This document shows positions 13,172 through 14,823 of a stretch of 64,000 bases of DNA, in pieces; the stretch's first letter is position 1, and the number at the start of each line of letters is the position of its first letter. Made by a program: the position numbers and the translations under genes. The notes below the pieces were generated by a model. That model saw only the letters and a program-made list of their open reading frames with translations, searched no databases and had not been told where the DNA came from. This DNA comes from Pontibacter sp. G13 (GTDB lineage Bacteria > Bacteroidota > Bacteroidia > J057). The stretch lies in the NCBI RefSeq assembly GCF_031851795.1, contig NZ_CP134696.1, positions 1,421,576-1,485,575 of the forward strand, written 5' to 3'.

Positions 13172-13315
13172 GGAAAAGAATTGGCGATTTGAGCTTGGGG
13201 GACCTCCCCAAGGACCGCCGAATTTACGCATATTCGGCTACCAAATGTTGTCGAGATTTGAAAAATATGTCAGGCTTAGCTTCTAGGAGACAGGAAAGGG
13301 CAACAAGGCAACAAG

Positions 13316-13803
13316 GTCAGGGAATGAAATTCCCTGTCTGTGATATGTCGGGCCTACAGCCCTAGCATCTTGCAAGCCCTATAAGGGCGACATAACACAG
13401 CATTGGGTTTCCAACCCTATGCCATTCCATGCGATATGTCGGGCCTACAGGTCAGGGAATGAAATTCCCTGCCTGTGATATGTCGGGCCGACAGCCCTAG
13501 CATCTTGTAAGCCCTGTAGGGGCGACATAACACAGCATTGGGTTTCCAACCCTATGCTGTCCCAACCCTATGCCATTCCATGTGATATGCCGGGCCTAAA
13601 AGTCAGGGAATGAAATTCCCTGCCTGTGATATGTCGGGCCGACAGCCCTTACATCTTGCAAGCCCTGTAAGGGCGACACATCACAGCATTGGGTTTCCAA
13701 CCCTATGCCATTCCATGCGATATGTCGGGCCGACAGCCCTAGCATTTGGTAAGCCCTGTAGGGGCGACACATCGCAGGATAGGGTTTCCAACCCTATCCT
13801 GTC
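13316..13803 (+). repeat. left array of hairpin repeat units (3 full, 1 partial)
   Basis: Full units start at 13316, 13451 and 13602 with GTCAGGGAATGAAATTCC; a 5'-truncated unit starts near 13719. Each unit carries hairpin a (CAGGGAAT-GAA-ATTCCCTG), hairpin b (TGTCGGGCCTACAG pairing with CTGTAGGGGCGACA, leaving a symmetric GG/GG internal mismatch) and hairpin d around GGGTTTCCAACCC. Spacing is 135 and 151 bases; the difference reflects presence or absence of a short CCTATGCTGTCCCAA insert. Some units read GGGCCGACAG, which breaks one pair of hairpin b but allows an alternative TGTCGG/CCGACA fold. Confidence 0.9.
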
Positions 13804-13841
13804 CCCATTCCCCATTCCCCATTCCCAATTCCCAATTCCCC
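13803..13841 (+). repeat. short heptamer tandem repeat
   Basis: Five to six tandem heptamers, CCCATTC three times then CCAATTC twice, between the left repeat array and the transposase gene. It looks like slippage-prone simple sequence with no visible coding role. Confidence 0.85.
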
Positions 13842-13935
13842 AAAAATATTATTTGCAATTGAAATTCATTTTCAATAAAATGACCATGTCGCACGAAAAT
13901 CAAATTATACGCCAAATCATTTATGAAAAGTAATT

Positions 13936-14388
13936 GTGTCTCAATCATTGACTAGTCTTTACGTGCACATTGTGTTCAGTACAAAATACCGAAACCCTGT
14001 GCTTGTCGATCCCTTTGAAGAGTTGATTCATAAATACCTCTATGGAATAGCAAAAAATCTTGGATGTTCGGCGGTTGCAATAGGCGGACACCTTGATCAT
14101 GTGCATATTCTCTGTAGGGCCTCCAAGAAGATTCCTATGATGGATTTAGTCAAAACTCTTAAAGGCAATTCATCCAGATGGATTTCCTTGGAATTCCCTG
14201 AATTACGCCAATTCCAATGGCAAAAAGGGTATGCAGCATTTTCGGTCAGTCCACAAAATGTCTCCGATGTGGCTCACTATATTCGAAGACAAAAAGAACA
14301 TCATCAGTCCACAGACTTCAAGAACGAACTCAGAACCCTGTTATCCAATCATGGGGTTGAATACAATGAGGCCTATGTATGGGGGTGA
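13936..14388 (+). CDS. tnpA: IS200/IS605-like Y1 (HUH) transposase, REP-associated type
   Basis: A 150-residue Y1 transposase: beta-strand LYVHIVFSTKYR at 8-19, the HUH motif H55-V-H57 within GGHLDHVHIL, and the catalytic Tyr115 in VAHYIRRQKEHH with Gln119 and His122/123 following. These enzymes cut and join single-stranded DNA at hairpins through a 5'-phosphotyrosine link. The start is GTG at 13936; family members begin a few residues before the LYxHIVF strand. The catalytic residues are intact and the frame undamaged, so the enzyme may be active. Its position inside matching hairpin arrays on both sides suggests that these hairpins are its substrate, as known for RAYT proteins. Confidence 0.93.
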   Translation: MSQSLTSLYVHIVFSTKYRNPVLVDPFEELIHKYLYGIAKNLGCSAVAIGGHLDHVHILCRASKKIPMMDLVKTLKGNSSRWISLEFPELRQFQWQKGYAAFSVSPQNVSDVAHYIRRQKEHHQSTDFKNELRTLLSNHGVEYNEAYVWG

Positions 14389-14390
14389 TT

Positions 14391-14415
14391 CTGAAATTCT
14401 GGCTCCAGAATTCAG
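14391..14415 (+). repeat. inverted repeat immediately after the transposase stop
   Basis: CTGAAATTCTGG and CCAGAATT-CAG face each other across CT, starting a few bases after the transposase stop codon and running into the first right-hand repeat unit. It could be a subterminal recognition hairpin of the element or a weak terminator; no T-run follows. Confidence 0.55.
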
Positions 14416-14813
14416 GGAATGAAATTCCCTGCCTGTGATATGTCGGGCCTACAGCCCTTACATTTTGCAAGCCCTGTAGGGGCGACATAACACAGCATAG
14501 GGTTTCCAACTGTCCCAACCCTATGCCATTCCATGCGATATGCCAGGCCTACAGGTCAGGGAATGAAATTCCCTGCCTGTGATATGTCGGGCCTACAGCC
14601 CGAACATCTTGCAAGCCCTGTAAGGGCGACACAACACAACATAGGGTTTCCAACCCTATGCTGTCCCAACCCTATGCTATTCCATGTGATATGCCGAGCC
14701 TACAGGTCAGGGAATGAAATTCCCTGTCTGTGATATGTCGGGCCTACAGCCCTTACATCTTATTAGCCCTGTAGGGGCGACACAACACAACATAGGGTTT
14801 CCAACCCTATGTA
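14413..14813 (+). repeat. right array of hairpin repeat units (3 units)
   Basis: Units begin at 14413, 14555 and 14706 with the CAGGGAATGAAATTCCCTG hairpin, in the same orientation as the left array. Spacing is 142 and 151 bases. The first unit lacks CCTATG after its GGGTTTCCAAC, so its last hairpin is incomplete; the second and third keep a perfect CATAGGGTT/AACCCTATG stem. Confidence 0.9.
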
Positions 14814-14823
14814 CCTGCATGAA

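Follow-up and report, generated by a model that had tools for sequence, protein, structure and literature searches.

The stretch of DNA analysed here, referred to as the window, spans 64,000 nucleotides of the chromosome of Pontibacter sp. G13 (positions 1421576-1485575), whose genome comprises 7.67 Mb in 3 contigs. At 13936..14388 on the plus strand, the window carries an intact tnpA gene with a GTG start, which encodes a 150-aa Y1 HUH endonuclease/transposase of the subclass-1.2 type (DHVH ... WQ ... YIRRQKEHH). The product scores 102 bits against Pfam Y1_Tnp and 81 bits against the NCBIfam IS200/IS605 model, and sequence matches in the PDB identify IS200-family TnpAs as the nearest solved structures. 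Residues H55, H57, W95, Y115, Q119, H122 and H123 are invariant in our family alignment (A1), with the HUH motif formed by H55-V-H57, and the gene is the only one of its type in the genome.

The protein carries the signature given for subclass 1.2 by Quentin et al. 2018 (PMC6006769), namely an HUH motif of the form DH[IV]H, a W followed by Q, and Y---Q--HH, which here read DHVH, WQ and YIRRQKEHH. Its length, its single copy and its host also agree with that subclass, which is described as about 148 aa in size, low in copy number and found in Bacteroidetes. In a quick tree of 117 rows, subclass 1.2 is placed apart from class 2 (SH-aLRT 94), while class 1.1 is represented by just three rows, with one of them placed among the subclass-1.2 sequences.

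The repeat array around tnpA

Repeat units lie on either side of the gene, at 13313-13825 and 14406-14815. The initial annotation described six full units and one partial unit around an intact HUH transposase (H55-V-H57, Tyr115), each unit being a module of three distinct hairpins. We find the array, its hairpins and the open reading frame as it stated, with six units and a solo copy, but each unit contains four hairpins, since it is built from a single bipartite element present twice in opposite orientations. Covariance model R2 resolves 13 such elements, six inverted pairs and one solo, in the order + - + - + - - upstream of tnpA and + - + - + - downstream.

Upstream, pair I consists of element 1 (13318..13362, plus strand), which reads B'-linker-A with B = CAGGGAATGAAATTCCCTG, and element 2 (13376..13421, minus strand; B = CATTGGGTTTCCAACCCTATG). 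Pair II is made up of elements 3 (13453..13497, plus) and 4 (13511..13556, minus), and pair III of elements 5 (13604..13648, plus) and 6 (13662..13707, minus). The solo copy, element 7 (13753..13797, minus), is innermost on this side and has hairpin B toward the gene. On the downstream side, the innermost copy is element 8 (14413..14457, plus), which is inverted relative to element 7 and forms pair IV with element 9 (14471..14525, minus). Elements 10 (14557..14601, plus) and 11 (14615..14660, minus) make up pair V, and elements 12 (14708..14752, plus) and 13 (14766..14811, minus) pair VI. Between the two halves of the array, 297 nt on the left (13411-13707) are 92% identical to a stretch on the right (14515-14811). 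Separately, a run of near-identical CCCCATT/CCCAATT repeats occupies 13805-13842, between the last upstream element and tnpA.

Anatomy of the bipartite element

Each element is ~50 bp long and consists of two hairpins joined by a linker of 12-13 nt, which ends in AG beside hairpin B (CT on the other strand). Hairpin A has a stem of 4-5 bp and a loop of 3-5 nt, and hairpin B is about 8 bp. A full unit has the layout B1-linker-A : A'-linker'-B2. In one example of the form dispersed across the chromosome, hairpin B is CAAGGGTT-GGA-AACCCTTG, the linker is N-CTGTGATATGTC and hairpin A is GCGC-CTACA-GCGC. The bases of the A stem differ on both sides among copies (GCGC/GCGC, GTCC/GGAC, GTGC/GCAC, GGGC/GCCC, GCCC/GGGC), and in 24 copies picked by sequence, hairpin A is paired in 100% of cells, with both variable pairs compensated. 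The element is also sharply bounded: across 35 copies with differing flanks, conservation breaks off abruptly on either side, at points ~50 bp apart, and the CT at the edge next to hairpin A is invariant.

The covariation seen among dispersed copies follows the short A hairpins, and the long middle hairpin with a GG/GG mismatch that had been proposed for each unit is thereby ruled out. What appeared as one mismatched hairpin is instead two separate A hairpins, GGGC-CTACA-GCCC and GCCC-TGTAG-GGGC, which belong to two elements facing each other. At the foot of the focal hairpin B we observe ACAG rather than the GT[AG]G of classical REPs. The AG at this position is conserved across the family, and the exact GTAG occurs in only a few loci (e.g., L094, L096, L098 and L115).

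Copies across the chromosome

With model R2, we find at least 150 copies of the element in 38 clusters of the chromosome, so it is not confined to one locus. The copies are mostly intergenic, with open reading frames of at least 150 aa containing 12 of 85 sampled copies versus an expected 71%. Away from the tnpA locus, a single inverted pair was found, the remaining copies being single and mostly in direct arrays. When 21 other genomes of the order were searched with the same model, one gave a single borderline match and the rest none. The initial annotation had named two patterns as contrary to its proposal, units at this locus only and units abundant in relatives that lack a related transposase gene, and neither is seen. 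Most dispersed copies carry GCGC-type A hairpins, unlike the copies next to tnpA, which have the GGGC/GCCC type. This difference gives no sign of recent export from the focal locus and counts against the explanation that we favor below.

Some of the copies sit in larger structures. At 6104209-6106703 (L021), we observe large tandem arrays with a period of ~431 bp, each period holding one bipartite element together with other conserved palindromic modules (e.g., around TTCAGAATGACA), and similar segmental arrays are present at 2.16, 5.26 and 7.25 Mb.

The only other Y1 gene of the genome, at 5488321-5488866 on the minus strand (L030), is of the RAYT group 5/subclass 2.6 type, with the motifs NHIH, FWQ and YIHQNP (class-2 Y-x3-NP). 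The presence of this gene, with a few element copies near it, raises the alternative that it mobilizes the dispersed repeats (5488564, RAYT group 5 type) and that these lie beside the focal tnpA by chance. It has, however, a flanking repeat of its own, CGCGGACTxCGCGGCAGGCC...CGGTCCGGAAGTCCGCG (CGCGGACT...AGTCCGCG), which forms a family distinct from the focal element and by which attribution of the element to this gene was ruled out. The A-12-B element, moreover, follows subclass 1.2 across phyla, being found by a relaxed scan at 72/79 near homologues versus 4/33 class-2 genes, the background for scans of this kind being 34% of windows. We therefore regard mobilization by the second Y1 gene as highly improbable.

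The element matches Acido-Lenti-1

The A-12-B architecture was derived here ahead of any comparison with Rfam, and it is the same as that of Acido-Lenti-1 (RF01687), whose 46-nt consensus opens with a hairpin of 8 bp, followed by a linker of 12 nt with CU at its start, a 5-bp/3-nt hairpin and a further CU. Each of the 13 elements in the array aligns with RF01687 over the full model. Element 9 is the best match and the only one above the gathering score of 37 (41.2 bits, E 3e-7), with the other 12 at 22-34 bits: elements 1 to 8 score 27.8, 30.0, 22.4, 32.4, 22.4, 29.0, 27.3 and 26.2 bits, and elements 10 to 13 score 22.5, 33.8, 27.8 and 33.2 bits. Further dispersed copies in the same genome reach up to 50.7 bits.

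The Acido-Lenti-1 motif, from Acidobacteria and Lentisphaerae, was listed among probable RNAs by Weinberg et al. 2010 (PMC2864571). It is filed in Rfam as an sRNA gene of unknown function, its function was still called little known in a 2026 paper, and genome papers continue to list RF01687 as a possible regulatory ncRNA (PMC13298647). In our literature search, we found no paper tying Acido-Lenti-1 to a transposase, and a text search with a typical A-hairpin sequence likewise returned none.

Such a tie is apparent at several levels. In 28 homologous loci (274 kb), all 18 gathering-level RF01687 hits fall within about 0.9 kb of tnpA, and all 14 carrier genomes contain 6-150 copies at E <=0.001, including some above the gathering score in each. 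Among 196 Planctomycetota genomes, RF01687 is present in 43/48 with tnpA versus 7/148 without it (OR 173, p=3e-30; uncorrected for phylogeny), and in 42/44 of those with the gene when four genomes whose protein match is weak or partial are excluded. Among 247 Bacteroidota genomes, the corresponding figures are 36/111 versus 13/136 (OR 4.5, p=1e-5; again uncorrected for phylogeny). The generic model R1 gives a moderate association in the latter phylum, where three or more matches occur in 29/111 genomes with the gene versus 11/136 without. Many Bacteroidota genomes with tnpA have no detectable RF01687 or R1 matches, and 8 of the 13 that carry RF01687 without the gene belong to one family (f25). 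The link between RF01687 and tnpA is thus strong in Planctomycetota and weaker in Bacteroidota.

Among the genomes with elements and no detected subclass-1.2 TnpA, two cases stand out. Several f25 genomes contain RF01687/R1 elements along with several long (about 320-340 aa) class-2 Y1 genes. One planctomycete genome (G291) contains 16 RF01687 copies, many in inverted pairs about 150 nt apart, and is a candidate for gene loss, for the use of another transposase or for an assembly gap.

The filing of Acido-Lenti-1 as an sRNA gene in Rfam, the probable-RNA score of Weinberg et al. 2010 (PMC2864571) and the intergenic position of most copies would fit a genuine small RNA that is spread by, or near, IS200-like genes and whose hairpins act as RNA. 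The covariation of the hairpins cannot separate the DNA and RNA readings. Against a small RNA stand the copy number (at least 150 in this genome and 6-150 in others) and arrangement in direct and inverted arrays, the fact that in Planctomycetota it is almost always accompanied by a transposase of single-stranded DNA, and the presence of inverted copies on both sides of the gene, close to it. On this evidence, we judge a small RNA to be quite unlikely. The element is Acido-Lenti-1, and despite its entry in Rfam as an RNA gene, this family most likely represents the DNA target of the transposase.

Homologous loci in other phyla

The family set consists of 80 loci from a scan of relatives in Bacteroidota, Planctomycetota, Verrucomicrobiota, Acidobacteriota, Armatimonadota, Thermodesulfobacteriota, Chlamydiota and others. 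The two flanks of these genes tend to resemble each other, sharing five or more 12-mers in 50/70 loci versus 11/1222 control windows. A strict scan, requiring a perfect hairpin A and a perfect 7-bp hairpin B, finds the A-linker-B motif within 500 bp of 60/80 homologues, and the AG-ended motif is 40 times denser in the flanks than in control DNA (1.56 versus 0.039 per kb). Linker length peaks at 12-13 nt in homologue flanks and is flat in controls. Relaxed A-B scans have a high background in control windows (53% with any 6-16-nt linker and 34% with a mismatched B), and our argument therefore rests on the strict scan and the model-based results.

Of 26 loci in which orientation could be scored, 18 have elements on both sides of the gene in inverted orientation, with hairpin B pointing inward, mostly at a distance of 45-75 nt. 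Compensated changes are seen at all 13 pairs of a cross-phylum alignment, although nearly all members were chosen for near-perfect stems, so this covariation is descriptive and not independent evidence. Overall, the A-12-B architecture lies beside homologues in at least seven phyla, including Planctomycetota, Verrucomicrobiota, Acidobacteriota and Armatimonadota, and the repeat is not the Bacteroidota-specific variant that had initially been suggested.

In the tree of 117 proteins, the bipartite trait is spread through subclass 1.2 and is mostly missing from a nested Bacteroidota clade. Among the Pfam-best and same-order Bacteroidota homologues, it is present in 9/29 (focal gene included), and because most of these lack it, we make our claim for only a portion of subclass 1.2. 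The nested clade has other repeats, often of a single hairpin, and distant subclass-1.2 homologues from the same order (L032-L038) have different flanking palindromes, which are again mostly single-hairpin (e.g., CAGGGGCGTAGCCCTG), with a multi-hairpin module in L036. Subclass 1.2 may thus have several repeat types.

When compared to the description of subclass 1.2 by Quentin et al. 2018 (PMC6006769), our set differs in the presence of these repeats. Table 1 of that study lists REP as "no" for the subclass, and terminal structures are said in the study to be "generally" absent, whereas most of the near homologues in our set have the bipartite element (60/80, as above). The range that we observe also extends well beyond the Cyanobacteria and Bacteroidetes given there. 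The flanking repeats therefore revise a listed property of subclass 1.2 and leave its defining protein signature unbroken.

Comparison with REPtrons and insertion sequences

The system shares many features with REPtrons, in which a RAYT (TnpA_REP) is associated with GTAG-tagged REPs and REPINs. In both, a low-copy HUH gene lies among palindromic elements that also occur in many copies dispersed outside genes, inverted pairs are formed, an AG is found at the 5' foot of a hairpin, and the element families are genome-specific. The initial proposal of a REP/RAYT system is upheld in this arrangement, with its at least 150 dispersed copies, but not in the protein, which has the class-1 Y---Q--HH (Y115-I-R-R-Q119) instead of the Y---NP of classical RAYTs. 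The system further differs in that only AG of the GTAG is conserved at the foot, that each element has two hairpins, and that nearly all copies away from the gene are single and in direct arrays. Judged by these sequence features, it appears to be REPtron-like in its working but not a RAYT, as we looked for both a Y---NP motif and a GTAG foot and found neither.

A second comparison is to the IS200/IS605 insertion sequences (IS608, ISDra2), with which the system has subterminal hairpins in common and whose IS200-family TnpAs are the solved structures closest to the focal protein. The class-1 protein, the inverted bracketing at tens of nucleotides and the possibility of several gene copies in other genomes of the family would all suit an ordinary IS200-type insertion sequence composed of tnpA and its flanking elements, of which the dispersed elements would be solo ends or MITE-like remnants. 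Instead of multiple near-identical tnpA units, however, this genome has one tnpA of the type versus at least 150 elements, and each short element, far outnumbering the gene, bears a tandem pair of hairpins. For subclass 1.2 as a whole, Quentin et al. (PMC6006769) report low copy number and divergent copies. We consider an ordinary insertion sequence unlikely, while noting that this reading and a REPtron-like one differ in degree.

The explanation that we favor, and hold to be probable, is that a TnpA of class 1 (IS200-like, subclass 1.2) forms the core of a REPtron-like system, with Acido-Lenti-1 as its two-hairpin element. It brings together the finding of the element beside tnpA in several phyla, their co-occurrence across genomes, the genome-specific copies, their mainly intergenic placement and the covarying hairpins. 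Against it count the many Bacteroidota genomes in which tnpA occurs without RF01687 or R1 matches and those, mostly of family f25, in which the element occurs without the gene.

By analogy with known TnpA_REP proteins, which bind single-stranded REPs and cleave at CT (PMC8266576), the element would fold into two hairpins when its DNA is exposed as a single strand, and TnpA would bind the folded A-linker-B strand and cleave it via Tyr115, probably at a CT next to a hairpin foot. For classical REPs, it has been proposed that CT is selected through cross-complementarity with A3G4 of the GTAG guide (PMC8266576); the AG beside hairpin B may pick CT in the same way as these last two bases. Strand transfer to another single-stranded site would then scatter copies. 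Under such a scheme, the inverted pairs around tnpA may correspond to REPINs or to a terminal form, and the single elements elsewhere would be non-autonomous copies.

A more far-reaching version, which we offer tentatively as a possibility, is that the class-1 (IS200) branch of HUH enzymes evolved REP-type dispersal on its own, with the hairpins of A-N12-B each held by one subunit of a TnpA dimer, and that such systems are widespread in Bacteroidota, Planctomycetota, Verrucomicrobiota, Acidobacteriota and others, where their elements have been filed as the orphan non-coding RNA Acido-Lenti-1.

Significance

These results define a two-hairpin REP architecture that is conserved across several phyla and link REP-like elements to a TnpA subclass that had been described as lacking them. 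They also predict a specific TnpA substrate, which is open to direct biochemical testing. For RF01687, an Rfam family without a function since 2010, they provide a candidate function, and its annotations in Bacteroidota, Planctomycetota and others may mark mobile DNA rather than RNA genes.
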